Shown here: one piece after another, positions 2,700 to 11,485 of the stretch
Position numbering within the stretch: the stretch's first letter is position 1
Layout of the letters: each line of letters begins with the position of its first letter
Source of the DNA: an uncultured Bacteroidales bacterium
Lineage (GTDB): Bacteria; Bacteroidota; Bacteroidia; Bacteroidales; Muribaculaceae
Reading direction: 5' to 3'
DNA length: 11,764 bases
NCBI GenBank assembly: GCA_945828175.1
Contig: CALZQD010000021.1
Coordinates: forward strand, 1 to 11,764
The notes under the pieces: model-generated
What the model saw: the letters and a program-made list of their open reading frames with translations, nothing else
Database searches by the model: none
Told to the model about the DNA's origin: nothing
Program-made: the position numbers and the translations under genes

Positions 2700-3524
2700 G
2701 TGCGCCACAGTCTCGTCGTCATATCCATGCTCCTGCTGCTTCTCCTCGGCTCCTGTAAGTCGTCGCGTAACAGCGTGAAAGTCAAGCCCGACAATCGCGA
2801 GGCCGCCGTGACGCCCGTACCCCATAAGCTCAGTTCGTCGTCAGTCGACACCGAGATTGGCAACCGCCTCGTAAGCGAGGCCCGCAAATGGCTCGGCGTG
2901 CCCTACAGCTACGGCGGCAACTCACGCAAGGGCGTCGACTGCTCGGGCATGGTCGTCGCCGTCTACCGCGACGCCGCCTCATTGAAACTGCCGCGCAGCT
3001 CCGCTGACCAGCACCGCTACTGCCGCGACATAAACCGCAAGGACCTCGAAGCCGGCGACCTCGTCTTCTTCAAAGGCTCCTCCAAGGGCAAGATCAGCCA
3101 CGTCGGCATCTACATCGGCGACAACAAGATGATCCACGCCTCATCGTCGCGCGGCGTCATCGTCAGCGACCTCGCCGAGAAATACTATGTGCGCCACTAC
3201 CACGCCTCGGGCCGCGTCGAGGGCGTAACCTTCGCCGCTACAGGCAACTCGCCCGACAAAAACAAGAAAAAGAAGCAGAAAAAATCAAAGCGAACGCCCC
3301 CTCCGCCTCCAGTCGAGGAGAAAATCATCACCCCCGCCGACACTATTATCGTCCGCCCGATAGTCCCCACAGACAGCGTCCAAGAGCGCCGCAACACCAC
3401 CCCGGCTGACAGCATTATAAGCCGCCGCAACACCATCGCGGCCGACAGCACAGCCGTCGACACCACCGCCGTCACCGACGACATCCGCAACCGCGTCTCC
3501 CGCGGCTTCAAAGGCGCATTCTGA
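2700..3524 (+). CDS. NlpC/P60-family cell-wall endopeptidase lipoprotein
   Basis: The protein is 274 residues from a GTG start. The lipobox LLGSC puts the acylated cysteine at C19, so it is an envelope lipoprotein. The NlpC/P60 domain spans about residues 52-170. Its papain-like catalytic residues are visible: C81 in GVDCSGMV, H134 in KISHVGIYIG and H146 in KMIHASSS. This family cleaves peptide stems of peptidoglycan (D-Glu to diamino acid or similar bonds). The GTG is preferred because the next Met (residue 10) would leave too short a signal peptide, and a -7 box lies 22 bases upstream. The tail after residue 185 is unusual: a Lys-rich patch (187-198), a Pro run (200-204), then TPADTII / TPADSII and two RRNT units. 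It stands alone, divergent from htrA; both act on envelope maintenance. Confidence 0.9.
   Translation: MRHSLVVISMLLLLLLGSCKSSRNSVKVKPDNREAAVTPVPHKLSSSSVDTEIGNRLVSEARKWLGVPYSYGGNSRKGVDCSGMVVAVYRDAASLKLPRSSADQHRYCRDINRKDLEAGDLVFFKGSSKGKISHVGIYIGDNKMIHASSSRGVIVSDLAEKYYVRHYHASGRVEGVTFAATGNSPDKNKKKKQKKSKRTPPPPPVEEKIITPADTIIVRPIVPTDSVQERRNTTPADSIISRRNTIAADSTAVDTTAVTDDIRNRVSRGFKGAF
3387..3449 (+). repeat. Imperfect 36-bp-period repeat in the NlpC/P60 tail
   Basis: Two 27-bp copies (3387-3413 and 3423-3449), both starting CGCCGCAACACCA, match at 24 of 27 positions by hand count. They encode RRNTTPADS and RRNTIAADS, 12 residues apart. An earlier TPADTII at residues 211-217 echoes the same unit. Confidence 0.7.
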
Positions 3525-3670
3525 CAGCGCCATCAACCACTGCCAAGGCAACATTTTTATCCTGGTTCCGAGCTTTAGCGAGGCCTACTCTCAGCGTTCT
3601 CGCCATCTTCCGATTTTTCCGATAAACTCCGATAACTCCGATTGCTATCTTTACCTCCCGCACGCCAAAG
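3525..3670. other. Intergenic stretch with no gene seen
   Basis: I see no plausible coding frame, no RNA gene and no convincing terminator hairpin between the NlpC/P60 stop and the pseudogene remnant. The only structure is the CCGAT repeat cluster at 3610-3642. Confidence 0.6.
3610..3642. repeat. Four spaced CCGAT direct repeats
   Basis: CCGAT occurs at 3610-3614, 3619-3623, 3629-3633 and 3638-3642. The spacing is 9, 10 and 9 bases, close to one DNA helix turn, with AT-rich spacers (TTTT, AAACT, AACT). It could be a decayed microsatellite or a protein-binding array; the sequence alone does not decide. Confidence 0.6.
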
Positions 3671-3872
3671 CTATGTCAGCGCTCCCGTCCAGACATAATT
3701 AAGAGCAAAAATAACGGTGAAAGCGAAGTCGAGCCACGGCAGGGCGATGGTGAGTGCAAAAACGATGAGGTGTATAGCTGAAGTCGTCGAAGCCCCACGG
3801 CGTGAGAGCGAAAATGAGGCCATATAAAGCGGCGGCAGCGATGAGCCAGATGTTGAAAAGGCGTGATTTCAT
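3671..3872 (-). pseudogene. Frameshifted remnant of a multi-pass membrane protein gene (DUF6056-like?)
   Basis: From the ATG at 3872 the minus strand encodes MKSRLFNIWL, a hydrophobic span and TPWGFDDFSY. It then becomes non-membrane-like and stops at 3699 (57 codons). The +1 frame, read from about the DDF codons, instead encodes a hydrophobic stretch (IHLIVFALTIALPWLDFAF) ending FALNYVWTGALT before a stop at 3671-3673. An N-terminal membrane span with a TP..DD[FY] motif and a later NY-[LV]-W motif recall the large polytopic DUF6056-type proteins, which are several hundred residues long. My reading is a gene reduced by a large internal deletion plus a frameshift. The family assignment is tentative. 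A functional 57-residue small protein is the alternative. Confidence 0.45.
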
Positions 3873-3919
3873 GAAGTTATCGCTTTATAAGCCAAACATT
3901 CGCGGGGCGGTGACGGAGA

Positions 3920-5566
3920 TTATTCGAGAGGCTGATTGAGGCGGCGGAGGTGGGGAGCATAGTTGAAGCCGTAGACCTCGTAGATGTCCATCAGCTGCGG
4001 GAGGCGGCGGAGGAACATCGTATAGTCTTTAGTCGAGGGGTCGACCCACTGGATTTCGCTGAGAGCAGCATAGCGGGGCAGCGCCTGATATTCGACGTCG
4101 GTGAAGTGGAAGAGACGCTCGGTCCACATATTTGCCTGAACGCCGAGGATGTGCTTGCCCTCTTCGGGAGTGAGTACCGAGGGCACGGGGTCGAAGCTGT
4201 AGACTTTGTCGACAGGAACGTAGTTGAAGCAGCCGTGGGGCTCGTTGGGCTCGCGGCTCTGGAAGTAATCGAAGTAGAGGTAGTCGGTGGGGGTCATGAT
4301 GACATCGTGGCCCGAGCGGGCAGCGGTGATGCCGCCGTCGGTGCCGCGCCACGACATGATGGTGGCTGTGGGCGATACTTTGCCTTCGAGAATCTCGTCC
4401 CAGCCGATTATCTTGCGGCCGCGGGCGTTGATAAATTTCTCGGCATGGTCCATGACGTAGTTCTGGAGGAGCTGTTCGGCCGTGTGATGCTCGTCGGAGA
4501 CGAGGCCGAGCTCCTTGATCTTGGCCTGGCATTTGGGGCACTCCTGCCAGCGGAATTTGGGGCATTCGTCGCCGCCGATGTGGATATACTCTGAGGGGAA
4601 GATGTCGATTACCTCGGCGAGGACATCGTCGATGAAGTCATAAATCTTGTCGTTGCCGGCGCAGAGCACCTCGTTGGTGATGCCCCAGTCCTGCCAAACC
4701 TCGTAGGGGCCGCCGGTGCAGCCGAGTTCGGGATAGACGGCGAGGGCGGCCTGCATATGGCCGGGCATGTCGATTTCGGGGATGATGACGATGTTGCGGT
4801 CGGCGGCGTAGGCGATGATGTCGCGAGCCTCGTCCTGGGTGTAGAAACCGCCGTGGGGGATGCCGTCGAACTCACCGGGACGGCCTTTTATGGCTGTGCC
4901 TTTGCGCTTCGAGCCTTCGGCGGCGAGGCGCGGGTGTTTCTTGATTTCGATGCGCCAGCCCTGGTCGTCGGTGAGATGCCAGTGGAGTCGGTTCATGTTG
5001 TGCATGGCCATGATGTCGATGAAGCGCTTGATTGAGTCGGTCGTGAAGAAATGGCGGCTGACGTCGAGGTGGGCGCCGCGATAGCCGAAGCGGGGAAAAT
5101 CGGTGACGCTGACTGCGGGGAGCTCAATCGAGGCGGCTTTGCCTGCGGGGAGCGATTTGCGGAGGGTCTGGATGCCGTAGAAGACGCCGCCGTTGTCGGG
5201 GGCGGTAATGCTGACGCCGTCGGCCTTGACGGTGAGCGAGTAGCTCTCGGGCTTGCCTTCACCGGCTACGGCGAGGGTTATGCCGTCGCTGCCCGTGCCG
5301 GTCGCGGGGACGAGGGTGATGCCTGTCTGCTCCTTGACGTATCCGGCGAGGAATCCGGCATATTTGGCGAGCGCGGCGTTATCGGCGGGGTAATATACTT
5401 TCACGCCGTCGCGCAGGACGAAGGGCGCGTCGCCGTCGGTGTAGGCGACTTCGCGCGGCATGGGGATGACTTTGAAATTGGCTTTCGAGGCAGCCTCGGC
5501 CGGCATGAAGGCACAGGAGAGCGCCAGAACGAAGGCCACGCGGGCTATGGTCTTGAGAAATTTCAT
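3920..5566 (-). CDS. Secreted GH20 beta-N-acetylhexosaminidase
   Basis: The protein is 548 residues: a signal peptide (about 1-26, ending MPAEA-AS), an N-terminal GH20b-type alpha/beta domain (about 30-157) and a GH20 TIM barrel (about 160-515). The catalytic pair is D333-E334 in YIHIGGDECP: the Asp orients the substrate acetamido group and the Glu is the acid/base of the substrate-assisted mechanism. RGAHLDVSRHF (163-173), HWHLTDDQGWRIEI (195-208), MPGH (267-270), GWDEIL (388-393), MSWRG (404-408) and the final EIQW (504-507) are further family landmarks. It removes terminal beta-linked GlcNAc/GalNAc, for example from mucin or host glycans. The frame is open upstream to 5821, but the start at 5566 follows a -7 box at 5611-5618 and begins a proper signal peptide. 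The frame is intact. No SusC/D genes adjoin it, so it is not in an obvious polysaccharide utilisation locus here. Confidence 0.95.
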   Translation of the reverse strand: MKFLKTIARVAFVLALSCAFMPAEAASKANFKVIPMPREVAYTDGDAPFVLRDGVKVYYPADNAALAKYAGFLAGYVKEQTGITLVPATGTGSDGITLAVAGEGKPESYSLTVKADGVSITAPDNGGVFYGIQTLRKSLPAGKAASIELPAVSVTDFPRFGYRGAHLDVSRHFFTTDSIKRFIDIMAMHNMNRLHWHLTDDQGWRIEIKKHPRLAAEGSKRKGTAIKGRPGEFDGIPHGGFYTQDEARDIIAYAADRNIVIIPEIDMPGHMQAALAVYPELGCTGGPYEVWQDWGITNEVLCAGNDKIYDFIDDVLAEVIDIFPSEYIHIGGDECPKFRWQECPKCQAKIKELGLVSDEHHTAEQLLQNYVMDHAEKFINARGRKIIGWDEILEGKVSPTATIMSWRGTDGGITAARSGHDVIMTPTDYLYFDYFQSREPNEPHGCFNYVPVDKVYSFDPVPSVLTPEEGKHILGVQANMWTERLFHFTDVEYQALPRYAALSEIQWVDPSTKDYTMFLRRLPQLMDIYEVYGFNYAPHLRRLNQPLE

Positions 5567-5610
5567 TGATAAGAGATGTTGAGTTATAGGATAATGCTTT
5601 GGTTTTAGCG

Positions 5611-5618
5611 CAAATCTA
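5611..5618 (-). promoter_or_regulatory. Candidate GH20 promoter, -7 box
   Basis: The minus strand reads TAGATTTG, a perfect TAnnTTTG match, 44 bases before the GH20 start, giving a leader of about 38 bases. No TTTG is seen at the -33 position. It decides against translation from the longer frame that runs up to 5821. Confidence 0.5.
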
Positions 5619-5682
5619 CTAAAAAAAGTGCGAACTTGCGGCATAAGGTCGGGCAAAGAAGGCGATATTATAATTTTTTGTA

Positions 5683-5690
5683 TATTTTTG
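5683..5690 (+). promoter_or_regulatory. Candidate promoter of the thioredoxin-like gene, -7 box
   Basis: TATTTTTG matches TAnnTTTG and lies 42 bases before the ATG at 5733. No -33 TTTG is found at 19-21 bases upstream. It is divergent from the GH20 box about 65 bp away, so the two genes share one short control region (5567-5732). Confidence 0.45.
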
Positions 5691-5732
5691 CCGATATAAA
5701 TATGGCGCGGACAACGGCGCCGCAATATTAAC

Positions 5733-6755
5733 ATGATGAAAAAGACATTCAAGACACTCCTTTTTGCGGCGGCATCGATCTGCTGCCTGACGGCCTCGGC
5801 CGAGAAATACAAAGTCATCATCCCCTTCGGCGACGAAGAAGAGGGCGCGATGGCCTATATGGTCAACTTCGACAACGGCGACAAAATCGACAGCGTCATC
5901 GTGGCCGACAAGGCAGCCGTGTTTACGGGCGAGATTGACGAACCCGTCGTCGCCCGCGTGCTTGTCGACGGCCAGCGAGTAGGAACCTTCATTCTCGAGA
6001 GCGGCACGATAGGCTACAACCATCAGCACGGCGCTTTCGGTTCGATGCTCAACGACCGCCTCAAGGCCATCAGCGACTCGGTCGGCGCCATCGCCGGCAA
6101 GTTCCGCACAGCCGCGACCGACGCCGAGCGCGAGGCCATCTACGCCGACTATCAGCGCTATATCGACTCGCAGATTGCCGAGAACCTCGACAGCCCGATA
6201 GCCTACTACCTCTTCATCCAGGACGCCGGGTCGCTCGAGCCCGCCGAGTTTGAGGCCGCACTGAAGAAGTATCCGGCCCTCGCCTCATATCAGCGCGTCG
6301 GCAAAATCAAGGAATCGCACGCCCGCCGTCAGGCCACGTCGCCCGGCAATATGTTTGCCGACTTCGAGGTCGAATATCAGGGCAAGACCTACCGCCTGAG
6401 CGATTATGTCGCCAAAGGCCGTTATGTGCTCGTCGACTACTGGGCAAGCTGGTGCGGCCCCTGCCTGCGTCAGCTGCCGGTGCTCAAAGAGCTCTACGGC
6501 GAGTATAAAGACAAGGGCCTCGACGTGCTCGGCGTAGCCGTCTGGGACCAGCCGGCCGACACCGAGGCCGCCATCGTCAGCCACGAGCTGCCCTGGCCCT
6601 GCATCATCAACGCCGGCAATGTGCCGACCGACATCTACGGTATCAACGGCATACCCTGCATAATACTCTATGGCCCCGACGGCAAGATTCTCGTGCGCGA
6701 CAAGCAGGGCGACGAGCTCAAAGCCGCCGTCCGCGAGTTTATGGACAAGAAATAA
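5733..6755 (+). CDS. TlpA-family periplasmic thioredoxin-like protein
   Basis: The protein is 340 residues. A signal peptide (about 1-23, ending LTASA-E) is of the non-lipoprotein type: the CC at 17-18 is not preceded by a lipobox. An N-terminal DUF4369-like beta domain (about 24-110) and a helical linker (110-200) lead to a TlpA/thioredoxin domain (about 207-338). The redox motif is WCGPC (C241, C244), and the cis-proline loop is GIPCIILYGPDG (P308). This class is common in Bacteroidetes and probably reduces or exchanges disulfides in the periplasm; its substrate is unknown. C290 and C309 are extra cysteines. C309 directly follows the cis-proline, where Thr or another residue is more usual. 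ATG at 5733 and ATG at 5736 are both usable. It is divergent from the GH20 gene and convergent with the VanZ gene 36 bp away. Confidence 0.9.
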   Translation: MMKKTFKTLLFAAASICCLTASAEKYKVIIPFGDEEEGAMAYMVNFDNGDKIDSVIVADKAAVFTGEIDEPVVARVLVDGQRVGTFILESGTIGYNHQHGAFGSMLNDRLKAISDSVGAIAGKFRTAATDAEREAIYADYQRYIDSQIAENLDSPIAYYLFIQDAGSLEPAEFEAALKKYPALASYQRVGKIKESHARRQATSPGNMFADFEVEYQGKTYRLSDYVAKGRYVLVDYWASWCGPCLRQLPVLKELYGEYKDKGLDVLGVAVWDQPADTEAAIVSHELPWPCIINAGNVPTDIYGINGIPCIILYGPDGKILVRDKQGDELKAAVREFMDKK

Positions 6756-6791
6756 GAGGAGAGAGGAAGGCGGTGCAGCGCCGAGCGGAGC

Positions 6792-7190
6792 TTACCGCTG
6801 TCTCAACACCCTGTTGACGGCCGGGGGAGCCGTGAAGACGGCCACCCAGACGCCGGTCCAGTCGGCCAGCAGGTCGAAGATGTCGCCCGAACGGCTGTCG
6901 GTGAGATAAGCCTGGGCGAGCTCGTCGGCGATGCAGGCCACCATGACACATAAAGCAACTTTAGACATGAAGCTGAACGTCAACTGCCGTTGGCGTTCAG
7001 CTCTTTTATAGTCGAAGGCGATGGCGCCGACGAGGCCGCCCATCATAATGGCGTGGATGAGTTTGTCGAGGTGGGGAATCTCGAAACTGACGTCGCCGGT
7101 GGGGTCAGACGAGAGCGTGGCGTAGAGTATCACGCCGACGACGATGAGTGTGGGCCAGTAGTGGCGCAGAAAAGTTATAAAGCTGTTCAT
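6792..7190 (-). CDS. VanZ family membrane protein
   Basis: The protein has 132 residues and four likely membrane spans (about 12-28, 44-60, 76-92 and 105-122). The VanZ-like landmarks are DKLIHAIMMGGL (42-53) and DELAQAYLTDSRSGDIFDLLADWTG (89-113), the acidic/aromatic loop typical of the family. VanZ proteins of vancomycin clusters give low teicoplanin resistance, but chromosomal relatives like this are widespread, have no proven role and do not indicate glycopeptide resistance. Its ATG overlaps the stop of the upstream small protein by 4 bp (ATGA), so the two are probably translationally coupled. It is the last gene of the transporter, small protein, VanZ set. Confidence 0.88.
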   Translation of the reverse strand: MNSFITFLRHYWPTLIVVGVILYATLSSDPTGDVSFEIPHLDKLIHAIMMGGLVGAIAFDYKRAERQRQLTFSFMSKVALCVMVACIADELAQAYLTDSRSGDIFDLLADWTGVWVAVFTAPPAVNRVLRQR

Positions 7191-7477
7191 TCGTTGACGG
7201 GTTCATCAAGGTAATTGCGGCTCACGGCCTTGCTCGCAGCCGGTTTGCGGGGTTTGGCGGCGCGCTTGCGCGATGACTTCGCCGCGGCGCTGTCGGCTGA
7301 GACTGAAGCTTCTTTGGCGGCGACGATGACGGCGGCGACGCTGTCGGCCTCGGCGATATGACGCTCAGCGGCAGCCCTGTCGCCGGTCGGACACGATGTC
7401 ACGGCCAAGGCGACGGCGATAACGACGACGAGGACCGTCAGCGCGACGGTCTCGAGAGATGTGAGCCTGAGTTTCAT
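7187..7477 (-). CDS. Small membrane-anchored or lipoprotein of unknown function
   Basis: I do not recognise this 96-residue protein. A hydrophobic span (about residues 9-28) ends in VTSC, which fits a lipobox with C29 as the lipidated residue, although a plain membrane anchor is also possible. The rest is Ala/Ser-rich (30-66), then strongly basic (about 67-83, SSRKRAAKPRKPAASKA), and ends in an acidic NYLDEPVNE tail. No enzymatic motif is visible. It begins 4 bp after the transporter stop and overlaps the VanZ start by 4 bp, so it is very likely co-translated with both. That tight packing argues that it is a real gene despite low complexity. Confidence 0.7.
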   Translation of the reverse strand: MKLRLTSLETVALTVLVVVIAVALAVTSCPTGDRAAAERHIAEADSVAAVIVAAKEASVSADSAAAKSSRKRAAKPRKPAASKAVSRNYLDEPVNE

Positions 7478-7481
7478 TATA

Positions 7482-8846
7482 TTATATCAGCTTGGAAATC
7501 ATGATGGCGGCGATGAGCAGCGGAGCCACATAGCGGATGACGAAGGCCACGGCCGAGGTGACGCGCGACTTAATCGTGCCGTGGTTGGTGAGCTGCTCGT
7601 CGAGGAGATGATGCGGGGCAAACCAGCCGACATAGACGCAGACGCCTATCGAGACGAGCGGCAGCAGGATGTCGGTCGTAGTTGAGTCGAGGAAGTCGAA
7701 GATGTTCTTGCCGCCGATGGTGATGTTGCCGAGCGAGCCGTAGGAGAGCGAGCAGACCGAGCTGAAGACAAAGAGTGGCAGCATCACCGTCAGGCAGGCG
7801 CGGCGTCGGCTCATCGAGAAATGGTCCTGCATGAAGGCAATCGACACCTCGGCAATCGACACGGTCGAGGTCAGCGCGGCGACGAGGAGCAGCAGGAAGA
7901 ACATTATCGACCAGAGGACGGTGCCGGGCATGTTGGTGAATACCTCGGGGAGGGTGACGAAGACGAGCGTGGCGCCGGCGAGGCTGTGGTTGTCGAGGCC
8001 GAAGGTCGTCACGGCGGGGAAGATGATGCAGCCCGTGAGGATGGCGACGAGAAGACTCATCGTCGAGACGATGACCGACGTGCGCGTCAGGCGCGTGTCG
8101 TCGGGGTAGTATGCGGCGTAGGTAATGAGGATGCCCATGCCGAGGCTGAGCGAGAAGAAGGTTTGGCCGAGGGCGCTGACGAAGACTTCGGGGGTAATCT
8201 TCGAGAAGTCGGGCGAGAGGAAGAACTCGAGGCCCCGGCCGGCACCGGGGAGGCTGAGCGTCACCGCGCAGAGCACGACGAGGATGAGGAAGAGCAGTGG
8301 CATAAGAACGTTCGACAGACGCTCGATGCCTTTCTGGACGCCGCCGAGGAGGATGCCGATGTTGATGATTATGACAGCCCAGGTCGCTGTCAGCGGCGCG
8401 ATGTCAGAGAAGATATATCGCTCCATGCGGCCGGTGAAGGCGTTGTCGAGGGCGGCGTCGGTGCTGCCGAGGTCGCTGTAGAGATTGCCGGTGATTGACT
8501 CCCAGAGGTATTCGAGAGTCCAGCCGGCGACTACCATATAGTAGCAGAGGATGAGGTATGAGGCGAGGATGGCGAGGCCGCCGACGATGGGCCACTTCGA
8601 GCCTGGCGAGAGGCGGCTGAACGAGCCGGCGGCGTCGTTGCGGCCCGCACGGCCGAGCGAGAACTCGGCCAGCATCACGGGGATGCCGAGCACCACGACG
8701 CAGGCGATATAGAGGATGAGGAAGGCCGCGCCGCCGTTGTTTTGAGTCTCGGCCGGGAAACGCCATACATTTCCCAGTCCGACGGCAGAGCCCACGGTCG
8801 CTGCGATCAATCCTATTTTTGAACCGAATTGAGCTTTCTTTGACAT
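7482..8846 (-). CDS. Sodium-dependent transporter, NSS/SNF (LeuT-fold) family
   Basis: The protein is 454 residues from the ATG at 8846, with about 11 hydrophobic spans, a usual size for bacterial NSS members. TM1 carries the family signature GSAVGLGNVWRFP (19-31), including the unwound-helix residues that bind Na+ and substrate. QKGIE (171-175) is the conserved loop after TM4-5, ALGQTFFSLSLGMG (225-238) is the TM6 substrate region, and T326-S327 in AALTSTVSIAE (323-333) match the TM8 Na2-site residues. These carriers import amino acids or similar compounds with Na+ across the inner membrane; the substrate cannot be told here. The frame runs up to 8888, but the promoter at 8886-8917 overlaps that extension, fixing 8846 as the start. 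It is the first gene of the operon. Confidence 0.93.
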   Translation of the reverse strand: MSKKAQFGSKIGLIAATVGSAVGLGNVWRFPAETQNNGGAAFLILYIACVVVLGIPVMLAEFSLGRAGRNDAAGSFSRLSPGSKWPIVGGLAILASYLILCYYMVVAGWTLEYLWESITGNLYSDLGSTDAALDNAFTGRMERYIFSDIAPLTATWAVIIINIGILLGGVQKGIERLSNVLMPLLFLILVVLCAVTLSLPGAGRGLEFFLSPDFSKITPEVFVSALGQTFFSLSLGMGILITYAAYYPDDTRLTRTSVIVSTMSLLVAILTGCIIFPAVTTFGLDNHSLAGATLVFVTLPEVFTNMPGTVLWSIMFFLLLLVAALTSTVSIAEVSIAFMQDHFSMSRRRACLTVMLPLFVFSSVCSLSYGSLGNITIGGKNIFDFLDSTTTDILLPLVSIGVCVYVGWFAPHHLLDEQLTNHGTIKSRVTSAVAFVIRYVAPLLIAAIMISKLI

Positions 8847-8885
8847 TATGTACGATGATTTGTTGACTATGCTGTAAAATTGTTG

Positions 8886-8917
8886 CAAAATTACACAAAC
8901 TAATTTATAAATGCAAA
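8886..8917 (-). promoter_or_regulatory. Promoter of the NSS transporter operon
   Basis: On the minus strand TTTG (complement of 8914-8917) and TAATTTTG (complement of 8886-8893) are separated by 20 bases, a full match to the Bacteroidetes primary sigma-factor consensus (TTTG, about 19-21 bases, TAnnTTTG). The start codon follows 39 bases downstream. Confidence 0.75.
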
Positions 8918-8941
8918 AGCAGCGATAATTTTATTCACCTA

Positions 8942-8973
8942 TTTGCCTGAATAGGAATAAATCCTTATCTTTG
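8942..8973 (+). promoter_or_regulatory. Promoter of the TIR-Sel1 gene
   Basis: TTTG (8942-8945), a 20-base spacer and TATCTTTG (8966-8973) match the full Bacteroidetes -33/-7 consensus. Transcription would start near 8980, about 22 bases before the ATG. It lies back to back with the transporter promoter, whose -33 box is 24 bp away. The gene therefore looks constitutively or at least independently transcribed. Confidence 0.75.
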
Positions 8974-9001
8974 CGATAAACTACTCACTCTGCTAATCAC
9001 C

Positions 9002-11392
9002 ATGGACCAGGATATATTTATCAGCTACAGCCGTAAAGACACGATGATTGCCGAACGCATCTGCGCGGCGCTTGACCGCGTCGGCATCACGTATTTCATA
9101 GACCGTCAGGGCATAGCCGGCGGCATGGAGTTCCCGGAAGTGCTCGCCGACGCCATCACCGACTGCAAGATTTTCCTCTTTCTCGCGAGCGAGAATTCTT
9201 ATGTCTCTAAGTTTACCAACAGCGAGATAACATTCGCTTTCAATGAGAAACAGCCCAACTCGATACTGCCGTATATCATCGACGGCTCGCAGTTGCCCAA
9301 GAAGATGCGCTTTATCTTCTCGGGAATCAACTGGCGCACGATAGAGCAGCACCCCATCGACTCGGTGCTGATGAACGACCTGCTGCAGCTGCTCGGCCGC
9401 GACGGCTCGACGACGCCGCGGCGCCCGACGAAAGTGCCCGGCGGACTCGGCAGCGACACCGGTACGGTCGACGTCGGCACTAAGACAACGACTAAGACAA
9501 CATCGTCGTCGTCGATGACCCAGGCCGAGATCGACAAGACCAAAGGCGCCGCCGACGCCCTCTATAATCAAAAGAAATACAGCGAGGCCTACCAGCTCTA
9601 CCTCAAGGCCGCCGACGCCGGCGACTACTGGTGCCAGTTCCGCGTGGCGTGGATGGCAAACAACGCCGAGGGCGTCACGAAAAACGTCGATACGGCTCGC
9701 AAATACTATACTATGTCGGCCAATCAGGGATATAACTACGCCCAGTATAACCTCGGCGTCATATATGAAGAAGAGGGAAACAAGGCCGACGCCTATCTCT
9801 TATACCGCAAGGCGGCCGAACAGGGCCATGATTCGGCGATGTACTGGCTTGGCGTGGCGCTGAGAGACGGCAAAGGCTGCGCCAAAGACGAGAAAGAGGC
9901 CATTTCATGGTTTATGAAGCTTGCCGACAAAGGTGACGGACGTGGATTTAACGCTCTCGGCAATGAGTATTATAACGGCACAGGTGTCGCCGTCGACTAC
10001 AACAAGGCGGTAGATTACTACCGCCGCGGATATGAAGCCGGCAACATCTACGCTACATCGAATCTCGGCATGTGCTATGAATATGGCAACGGCGTGGCCA
10101 AAGATCTCGACATGGCAAAAAAATATTACAAGGAGGCCGCCGACAAGGGTAATAAATATGCCAAAGAGCAGTATGAGCGCCTCTCGAAGTCATCATCATC
10201 GACATCGTCAACGACCACAAACTCGACAACGATGTCGAAATCATCGGTTGACGAACTCGTCAAGCAGGCCGACAAGCTCTATGATGCAGCAAAATATTCC
10301 GAGGCCGTCCCGAAATACCGTCAGGCTGCCGACGCCGGCAGTTCGTGGGCGCAGTTTCGCATCGGCTGGATGGCAAACAACGCCGAAGGTATGGTGAAAG
10401 ACCCCGAGATGGCCCGCAAATATTACAGGATGTCGGCCGAGCAGGGCTATCGCTACGCTCAGTATAATCTCGCAATCATATATGATGCGGACAAGAATTA
10501 TGAGGAATCGTATAAATGGTACCGCAAGGCAGCCGAACAAGATCATGACTCGGCCATGTATTGGCTCGGCGTGGCGCTGCAAGAGGGCAAAGGATGTGTC
10601 AAAGACGAGAAAGAGGCCCATTCGTGGTTTATGAAGCTTGCCGCCAAAAACGACAAACGCGCCCTCGCAGCCGTCGGTAACGACTATTATTACGGCCGCG
10701 GCGTCGCAGTCGACCTCCCCAAATCGGTCGAATATTACCGCAAAGCCGCCGACCTCGGTCATGTCTATTCGCAATACAGCCTCGGCTATGCTTATGAGCG
10801 CGGCAAGGGCGCCCCGGTCGACCTCGACGAGGCGAAGCGCTGGTATCGCAAAGCCGCCGACGGTGGCAACGAGAGCGCCCGCAAGGCTCTCGACAGGCTC
10901 AAGAACGGCAATGCGTCAGACCCGCTGTCGACGATGACCGAGGGTCAGCTGATCAATGAGGCCAACAGCCTATATAACGCCAAGAATTACGCCGAGGCAT
11001 TCCGCTATTATCAGGCGAGCGTCGACCGCTTCCCCAACGGCAGCGTTTGGTTGCGCATGGGTGCGATGTGCGAGGATGGCCTGGGCGTGCCTGTCGATTA
11101 CAACAAGGCTATGCATTTTTATGAACTCGCCGGCGAGAAAAACAATGCTAGCGGTTGGGTCAATATTGGTCACATGTATTATAATGGCAAGATTAAGAAG
11201 GACTATTCGCTCGCAGAGAAGTATTATCAGAAGGCCGACGCACTCGGCGACGCTGCCGGTGCAGCCTGGACGGGAGTGCTCTATCACTATGCCCTCGGAC
11301 GTCCGGCCGACAAAGCCAAAGCACGCCAATACTACGACAAGGCCATCTCGCGCGGCAGCAAATTCGCCGAAGAGCAGAAGGCAAAACTTTGA
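9002..11392 (+). CDS. TIR domain - Sel1 repeat fusion protein
   Basis: The protein is 796 residues with no signal peptide, so probably cytoplasmic. The TIR domain covers about 4-132: strand A with box 1 (IFISYSRKD, 5-13), a BB-loop region (DRQGIAGGMEF, 34-44) and LASENSYVSKFTNSE (61-75), which matches the bacterial TIR pattern S-x-x-x-x-S-x-[WF]-x-x-x-E, so E75 aligns with the NADase glutamate. A Ser/Thr-rich linker (134-172) leads to about 13 Sel1 repeats of 36 residues in three modules (174-395, 416-635, 645-796). Each module opens with a TPR-like hairpin (LYNxKxYxEAxxxY) and follows a Ser/Thr-rich spacer. Bacterial TIR domains often cleave or convert NAD+ in immunity; Sel1 repeats bind proteins or ligands. 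A sensor-effector role is inference; a scaffold or signalling role is the alternative. The frame is intact and the gene single, with its own promoter and terminator. Confidence 0.92.
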   Translation: MDQDIFISYSRKDTMIAERICAALDRVGITYFIDRQGIAGGMEFPEVLADAITDCKIFLFLASENSYVSKFTNSEITFAFNEKQPNSILPYIIDGSQLPKKMRFIFSGINWRTIEQHPIDSVLMNDLLQLLGRDGSTTPRRPTKVPGGLGSDTGTVDVGTKTTTKTTSSSSMTQAEIDKTKGAADALYNQKKYSEAYQLYLKAADAGDYWCQFRVAWMANNAEGVTKNVDTARKYYTMSANQGYNYAQYNLGVIYEEEGNKADAYLLYRKAAEQGHDSAMYWLGVALRDGKGCAKDEKEAISWFMKLADKGDGRGFNALGNEYYNGTGVAVDYNKAVDYYRRGYEAGNIYATSNLGMCYEYGNGVAKDLDMAKKYYKEAADKGNKYAKEQYERLSKSSSSTSSTTTNSTTMSKSSVDELVKQADKLYDAAKYSEAVPKYRQAADAGSSWAQFRIGWMANNAEGMVKDPEMARKYYRMSAEQGYRYAQYNLAIIYDADKNYEESYKWYRKAAEQDHDSAMYWLGVALQEGKGCVKDEKEAHSWFMKLAAKNDKRALAAVGNDYYYGRGVAVDLPKSVEYYRKAADLGHVYSQYSLGYAYERGKGAPVDLDEAKRWYRKAADGGNESARKALDRLKNGNASDPLSTMTEGQLINEANSLYNAKNYAEAFRYYQASVDRFPNGSVWLRMGAMCEDGLGVPVDYNKAMHFYELAGEKNNASGWVNIGHMYYNGKIKKDYSLAEKYYQKADALGDAAGAAWTGVLYHYALGRPADKAKARQYYDKAISRGSKFAEEQKAKL
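9542..10189 (+). repeat. Sel1 module 1 (first copy of the 717-bp-period duplication)
   Basis: Encodes residues 181-396. It aligns without gaps to residues 420-635 at a constant offset of 239 residues. My hand count is 126 identities in 216 positions (about 58%), with near-identical stretches such as HDSAMYWLGVAL and KYSEA. Confidence 0.9.
10259..10906 (+). repeat. Sel1 module 2 (second copy of the 717-bp-period duplication)
   Basis: Encodes residues 420-635, the ungapped partner of module 1. It contains five Sel1 repeats preceded by a TPR-like hairpin and reached through a Ser/Thr-rich spacer (residues 395-415). The third module (645-796) has the same opening hairpin but only three repeats and is more diverged. 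Confidence 0.9.
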
Positions 11393-11420
11393 TAAGCAGA
11401 CATAATATTTGTAATAAAAC

Positions 11421-11457
11421 CGCGTCCGACGTCAACCCGAAAGTTGCGCCGGACGCG
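11421..11457. terminator. Hairpin terminator between TIR-Sel1 and the barrel protein
   Basis: CGCGTCCG (11421-11428) pairs with CGGACGCG (11450-11457). Inner CAAC/GTTG pairing extends the stem past a mismatch and a bulge, and closes a loop of about six bases. ATTTT follows on the plus side and GTTTTATT on the minus side, so it can serve both converging genes. Confidence 0.85.
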
Positions 11458-11485
11458 TGATTTTGCATAGTACATTATATATCAC

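Follow-up and report, generated by a model that had tools for sequence, protein, structure and literature searches.

A TIR-Sel1 protein from an uncultured Bacteroidales bacterium belongs to a family in which a conserved TIR head bears different tails

Bacterial TIR systems are commonly described as fixed gene pairs. The TIR-Sel1 gene analyzed here was read in a first-pass annotation as a solitary fusion that may form a one-gene sensor-effector system. The window, that is, the whole stretch of DNA that was analyzed, is an entire contig (C21) of 11,764 bases, belonging to a 1.9-Mb genome that is 82% complete and lies in 316 contigs.

The TIR-Sel1 gene and its protein

The features of the gene are given in Table 1. 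Pfam confirmed the annotated joining of a TIR domain to Sel1 repeats, with a TIR_2 match of 65.4 bits over residues 5 to 113 (Pfam cut-off, 28 bits) and a Sel1 match of 253.7 bits over 10 stretches, both far above chance. The seven other window ORFs scanned with Pfam comprised a DegP-type protease, an NlpC/P60 protein, a GH20 hydrolase, a thioredoxin-like protein, a VanZ-like protein, the SNF-family symporter, and one unmatched ORF. No obvious partner gene was found among them, and the annotated lack of partners was upheld within the window, which stops 372 bases 3′ of the gene. A simple hydropathy scan revealed no transmembrane-like stretch in the TIR-Sel1 protein, and no signal peptide was recognized on reading its sequence.

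The Bacteroidetes −33/−7 promoter consensus is TTTG-N20-TAnnTTTG. An exact pattern search found two such sites in the window versus 0.03 expected, one of which ends 28 bases 5′ of the TIR-Sel1 ATG; the other (positions 8917 to 8886, minus strand) lies just upstream of the symporter gene. A generic sigma-70 scan upstream of TIR-Sel1 was unhelpful, yielding a single weak match (8863 to 8891, 9/12). On the 3′ side, RNA folding predicted a terminator-like hairpin, which has a weak T run and is absent from the output of the generic sigma-70/terminator scan. The annotated promoter was therefore borne out by the Bacteroidales-type site, and the annotated terminator found its counterpart in this hairpin; on paper, the two elements would make TIR-Sel1 a single-gene unit.

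Table 1. Coordinates of the TIR-Sel1 gene, its parts, and flanking features in the window
Feature	Position	Strand	Description	Basis
SNF-family sodium symporter gene	7482..8888	−	divergent common neighbor, outside the proposed system	Pfam
Bacteroidales-type promoter of TIR-Sel1 gene	8942..8973	+	TTTG at −33, 20-base spacer, TATCTTTG at −7	exact pattern match
TIR-Sel1 gene	9002..11392	+	796 aa, ATG start, intact	ORF call, Pfam
TIR head, residues 5-135	9014..9406	+		Pfam, family conservation, AlphaFold2
F71 codon	9212-9214	+
E75 codon	9224-9226	+	in helix 70-82	AlphaFold2
Disordered Ser/Thr-rich linker, residues 137-173	9410..9520	+	pLDDT <50 for residues 137-170
Sel1 solenoid block 1, residues 174-398	9521..10195	+	55.6% identical to block 2	Pfam, AlphaFold2
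Sel1 solenoid block 2, residues 413-636	10238..10909	+		AlphaFold2, internal-repeat comparison
Sel1/TPR solenoid block 3, residues 643-796	10928..11389	+		Pfam, AlphaFold2
Terminator-like hairpin 3′ of TIR-Sel1 gene	11421..11457	+	z −3.9	RNA fold of 11393-11475

Structure prediction of the TIR part alone with AlphaFold2, which had been proposed as a check, yielded a TIR fold (pLDDT 91.3, pTM 0.88), and the head belongs to the TIR family by this fold as well as by its above-cut-off Pfam match. Its low-confidence loop, residues 37 to 43, is what we take to be the BB loop. When the family profile was compared with PDB sequences, 76 matches were obtained at an E value of 0.01. In three of the five alignments shown, E75 aligns with a glutamate, namely, that of Cat1, AT1G72930, and Roq1, and the other two, both of Toll-receptor-related 2 chains, have no glutamate at this place. 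The glutamate at this position is presumably the catalytic one of NADase TIRs, and the TIR head carries it by alignment position. Residue 75 is E in 149/149 database copies, in 53/54 locus copies, and in 56 of the 58 alignment rows (the other two are gaps); locus L089, whose head is 68% identical, has V at this place. These data agree with the annotated candidate NADase glutamate, and on this conservation the TIR head is a probable NAD-cutting enzyme. The annotation had further remarked that F71 replaces the usual tryptophan. This holds against Cat1 and the plant TIRs, which carry W, but F is the norm within the family of TIR-Sel1 (140 F and 9 Y among the 149 database copies).

The full-length AlphaFold2 model (pLDDT 87.4, pTM 0.38) has the annotated solenoid attached to the TIR head via the disordered linker; at this pTM, the placement of the head relative to the arm is not fixed by the model. 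After residue 170, the chain forms 35 helices of at least 9 residues, arranged in three blocks with about 17 helix pairs. Block 2 duplicates block 1 internally (239-aa spacing, aligned over 232 aa). Tandem Pfam repeats, modeled helices, and matches to solved Sel1 relatives all identify the repeats as Sel1-like. The annotated long repeat solenoid was thus recovered; its annotated count of about 13 repeats compares with 10 stretches by Pfam and about 17 helix pairs in the model.

Similar TIR heads joined to unrelated tails

When a WG-tailed relative's head was used as the query for a family search, 896 proteins were obtained, the best 120 of which were scanned with Pfam. TIR_2 was present in all of these, accompanied by Lcl_C (presumably a C-type-lectin-type fold) in 69, L12 in 26, Sel1 in 13, WG in 8, FGE-sulfatase in 7, and SEC-C in 6; because the slice was picked by similarity to one member, these counts do not reflect family-wide proportions. 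The tails in ten whole-genome relatives were Sel1 (three), 4Fe-4S (L053), WG, L12, Lcl_C-like, nothing recognizable beyond TIR (two), and a triple TIR, where "Lcl_C-like" is used because many Lcl_C matches fall below the Pfam cut-off (26.2 versus 34.9 in L089). The window head is 66 to 71% identical to those of seven close relatives carrying Sel1 (three), WG, L12, 4Fe-4S, and unknown tails. We define a conserved-head/variable-tail family here by heads that are at least about 60% identical and whose near relatives bear other tail classes, as is the case for the window gene. These data indicated that TIR-Sel1 belongs to a Bacteroidales family in which the TIR head is conserved and the tails differ; the annotated "solitary TIR-Sel1 fusion" is real as a fusion but was understated, since the head occurs with several tails, of which Sel1 is one.

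Pairwise comparisons revealed close heads on unrelated tails. The heads of P0154 (Lcl) and P0137 (Sel1) are 94.6% identical and those of P0138 (FGE) and P0146 (Lcl) 90% identical, and the tails in each pair are unrelated (tail-versus-tail E values of 5.0 and 0.48, respectively); head identity in Sel1/WG pairs reaches 80%. The pair P0163 (L12) and P0149 (Lcl), with 97.7% identical heads, was ruled out as a clean swap, since part of the tail is common to both, which implies gain or loss instead of a full swap. Pairs with 100% identical heads likewise have partly common tails that differ by one added module.

A head tree was built from 133 columns, leaving out one protein without exactly one TIR hit and all TIR hits shorter than 116 residues; 56 of its 124 inner branches are open. 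Tail labels were assigned by hand from Pfam, mixed tails being put into one class and 22 of the 158 rows being unlabeled. On this tree, the tails need 18 changes versus a minimum of 6, and shuffled labels average 72. If only the well-supported branches are counted, repeated change is required just for Lcl (4) and L12 (3), and with these branches a single origin of the Sel1 tails may be compatible. Compared with the Sel1-tailed proteins P0001 to P0004, the window gene has a 98 to 100% identical head and blocks that are 70 to 100% identical where aligned (98% and 70 to 79%, respectively, for P0003). Head and arm diverge alike in P0005 (62% versus 57 to 68%), and thus stronger conservation of the head than of the arm is not a general rule. 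Taken as a pattern of sequences, a near-constant head with a replaced arm points to an adaptable immune-type switch. Among the relatives, L090 (2422 to 4896) encodes an 824-aa protein in which apparent membrane stretches separate three TIR domains, and L085 (8687 to 9907) holds a TIR-Sel1 relative in two separate pieces of 267 and 115 aa.

A survey of related genomes returned a patchy distribution. With the own genome included, strong matches to TIR-Sel1 occur in 7/226 family genomes, 3/393 order genomes, and 5/49 genus genomes (12/49 at E 0.001); the neighboring symporter is present in 45/49 genus genomes at E 1e-60. The genes flanking four close relatives (10 scanned) differ; most have housekeeping or polysaccharide functions, and two lack a match. 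Across 15 loci, neighbors recur in pairs, and in at least three loci only as short matches among three distant loci. A phosphotransacetylase neighbor is common to L053 and L054, and L083 has an SNF-type transporter that is 43% identical to that of the window. The TIR-Sel1 gene is thus accessory and mobile-like. The full-length protein had no relative in a wider set of genome contigs, where a TIR-only alignment did find relatives. Viral contigs gave no match to a single TIR query and one weak 27% match to a TIR alignment query, which is little sign of phage carriage. PADLOC recognized 28 families at E 1e-5 among 105 ORFs around ten loci, the strongest matches being mad3 (5.9e-49) and MzaA (4.8e-48), neither of them placed at a locus; a follow-up rescan covered 10 proteins, 9 from the 105, and the mad3 and MzaA matches lie outside this set.

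RyR-domain genes in the wider family

RyR-domain genes were surveyed in the 39 higher-ranking loci among the best 80 of 436 confirmed TIR loci (L094 to L131 and L133; best-segment identity, 45 to 72%); five of the 39 coincide with loci of the first series (L053, L054, L056, L084, and L086). RyR-domain ORFs lie within 5 kb of the TIR gene in 9/39 loci, at gaps of 9 bases in L103, 36 in L108, 24 in L117, and 71 in L118, and at 1.7 to 5 kb in the other loci. No ORF spans the whole TIR match in L118, L121, L124, and L130, two of which are among these nine. In total, 12 RyR ORFs, plus a weak match in L127, were counted in the 0.57 Mb around the 39 loci, compared with an expectation of about 0.28 given 48 matches across 38 genomes (95.9 Mb), and Pfam confirmed the domain in all three loci scanned (L103, L108, and L119). 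The RyR-linked loci carry FGE or unclassified tails, the latter often with transmembrane stretches. No RyR domain was found at twelve symporter loci that served as controls (193 kb), at ten first-series TIR loci, or, in the locus DNA examined, at eight loci with a tail best matching Sel1.

Co-occurrence was also evident at the level of genomes. Of the 38 TIR-bearing genomes, 30 contain RyR and 8 show none, and the domain occurs in 10/49 genus genomes, 48/226 family genomes, and 0/14 control genomes. Within the genus, RyR accompanies any TIR match in 8/12 genomes versus 2/37 without TIR (Fisher p 4e-5) and a strong TIR match in 4/5 versus 6/44 (p 0.004); in the family, 5/7 TIR genomes have RyR versus 43/219 others (p 0.005). 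These Fisher tests ignore relatedness, and the genome sets overlap. The own genome has one RyR gene, on contig C47 and unlinked to TIR-Sel1, whose product resembles animal RyR repeats as well as proteins of solved structure named "putative ryanodine receptor." It adjoins an unrelated, apparently exported protein; that the gene sits in a channel operon was considered and dropped, as this neighbor weakly resembles exported NAGPA-type proteins. The annotated idea of a one-gene system was therefore left uncertain: there is no partner in the window, but RyR genes occur near 9/39 wider-family loci and elsewhere in the own genome.

According to passages of a 2026 preprint (PMC13232231), phage RyR proteins cleave or sequester 2′/3′cADPR, which are cyclic ADP-ribose immune signals; it is the one report found in the open-access literature that treats RyR domains and TIR domains together in connection with bacteria. 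Taken with this activity, the linkage and co-occurrence of RyR genes favor a nucleotide product of the TIR head over mere loss of NAD+, with the reservation that the linked loci have other tails than Sel1.

Several RyR loci are complex. L117 (6236 to 10371) and L108 (7363 to 16396) each hold an array of three TIR ORFs, with different tails in L117, and an RyR gene lies within or next to the array. In L119, a run at 3445 to 10900 contains an RyR gene with a C39-like peptidase, a 967-aa protein with transmembrane-like stretches, a TIR-transmembrane protein, a Sel1 protein, and a small RyR protein; its reading as a split TIR-Sel1 is weakened by the export-signal-like stretch with which the Sel1 gene opens. 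Homologous neighbors occur near the TIR and RyR genes of L117 (2661 to 4010) and L103 (6923 to 7969), that of L117 having an SH3 domain as well as a PARP match below threshold.

A proposed sensor-enzyme, its alternatives, and known systems

We propose, with a probability of about 0.5, that TIR-Sel1 is a cytosolic single-chain sensor-enzyme whose TIR head is controlled by its tail, in a family with exchangeable tails and with RyR proteins reading or clearing the product. The head would process NAD+ in an E75-dependent manner into an ADP-ribose-type nucleotide, and NAD+ depletion could also occur. The Sel1 solenoid on its flexible linker would hold the head idle until a protein trigger, probably derived from a phage or from damage, is bound, upon which heads would cluster and become active. 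One conserved head with exchangeable tails would then couple many inputs to one output, and RyR-domain proteins, whose genes lie close to that of the TIR protein in certain relatives, would read or clear the nucleotide. By analogy, an immune role of TIR-Sel1 is probable. If this is true, swapping the inputs of a conserved enzyme head would diversify immune sensing in a plant-receptor-like manner without hypermutation at the DNA level, and the natural tail variants would form a ready set for trigger finding. The RyR association would supply a candidate partner for TIR products inside bacteria, the activity on such signals shown in passages of PMC13232231 being that of phage RyR proteins, and it bears on what the RyR domain in animal calcium channels binds.

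A broader formulation is offered tentatively. It sees a modular Bacteroidales TIR immune repertoire in which one conserved NAD+-processing head is recombined onto many unrelated tails that serve as sensors or decoys. The genes would be scattered singly or in arrays, bacterial RyR-domain proteins would read or erase the ADP-ribose signal, and the window gene would be the Sel1-tailed member. It is rather unlikely, in our estimate, that TIR-Sel1 is a suicide effector whose solenoid senses infection and whose head empties the cell of NAD+ without making a nucleotide signal, with RyR being incidental or a damage-control enzyme. A single gene with its own promoter and the absence of RyR around the eight loci with Sel1-like tails are in line with such an effector, and the conservation of E75 applies to it equally; the co-occurrence and enrichment of RyR around part of the family suit a nucleotide product better.

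The tails may instead mimic host parts that phages attack (ribosomal L12, ferredoxin, SecA-type SEC-C, and repeat scaffolds), so that the attack frees the TIR head. Housekeeping-type tails such as the L12 C-terminal domain (26/120) and SEC-C (6/120), both among the best 120 of 896, and the 4Fe-4S tail of L053 would fit such decoys. We nevertheless consider them improbable, since passages of PMC7159879 report L12/ClpS insertions as multimerizing modules in Bacteroidetes conflict systems. Moreover, Lcl_C, FGE, WG, and Sel1 are hardly evident targets for phages. An equally doubtful proposal is a non-enzymatic scaffold that works through TIR-TIR contacts only, its Sel1 arm organizing complexes, perhaps at the envelope: Sel1 proteins frequently act as scaffolds and L089 lacks the glutamate, but E75 is otherwise kept (149/149 and 53/54) and the protein has no transmembrane-like stretch. 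Least probable is a secreted effector acting on animal host TIR signaling or on neighboring bacteria, for although pathogen TIR effectors are known and many relatives come from animal-gut samples by their record titles, the protein lacks a transmembrane-like stretch and secretion genes are absent among the eight window ORFs scanned.

The proposed sensor-enzyme was also compared with known systems. It resembles ThsB/ThcB of Thoeris in its head of the predicted NAD+-processing type, with weak PADLOC matches of the ThsB type (29 bits) and a match to ThcB4 (42 bits) that is far below the curated cut-off of 220. Thoeris pairs a ThsB-type TIR with an adjacent ThsA-type effector; the latter is absent among the window genes scanned, and the window protein differs further by its long Sel1 arm. 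Cat1 shares the TIR match and the glutamate at the same place but is a chain of 263 aa that matches the family profile with 44 bits only. The PDB entry 9m0n, a "Tetratricopeptide repeat protein" of 824 aa with a TIR match at residues 4 to 97, seemingly has the same TIR-plus-repeat layout, judged from its name and length; no paper naming 9m0n or 9umd was found in the open-access literature.

In MoxR-vWA and related ternary conflict systems, TIR, FGS (FGE-sulfatase), Sel1, and ribosomal L12 serve as modules of variable effectors, which gain variety by module acquisition (passages of Kaur 2020, PMC7159879). The modules are common to both, whereas in the present family it is the TIR head that is conserved, with the tail fused to it, and matches to vWA, MoxR, and STAND are absent among the window genes scanned. 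Antigen sensors diversified by DGRs combine TIR and C-type lectin domains (passages of PMC10907252), a module similar to the Lcl_C and FGE tails of the relatives, while the window tail is Sel1; a crude YxDD motif search showed no DGR reverse transcriptase at eight relatives. The C-terminal TPR/Sel1 repeats of Avs5 are presumed to sense the pathogen and thought to keep the protein inactive (passages of PMC12931631). The window protein has a similar C-terminal region, unlike Avs5 without a STAND NTPase match. A "TIR-Sel1" fusion by name was not found in the open-access literature, though it may be described elsewhere, nor was a TIR domain together with a WG repeat. The passages of PMC3710099 that mention both a TIR domain and a Sel1 repeat describe no fusion, and "Sel1" is absent from the main text of PMC9092222 on gut TIR NADases.

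The own genome holds other TIR genes with close neighbors. On C23 (L060, 317 to 4393), a TIR-WD40 gene lies 24 bases from a NAD synthase/carbon-nitrogen hydrolase gene, an arrangement suggestive of an NAD-breaking and NAD-making pair. A contig-edge TIR gene on C192 (L063, 2 to 4267) overlaps an nSTAND1-LRR gene by 4 bases, and the two are likely to form a STAND immune pair. On C12 (L061, 1007 to 3312), a TIR gene has a 4-base overlap with a 434-aa gene that is unmatched in Pfam. Among relatives, one gene family recurs 3′ of related TIR genes in L116, L118, L120, L122, L124, L127, and L129, with a 4-base overlap at three loci and spacings of 2 to 18 bases at two and about 580 bases at two; the members scanned, from L122 and L129, are PEGA/BACON proteins of 778 and 759 aa, respectively.
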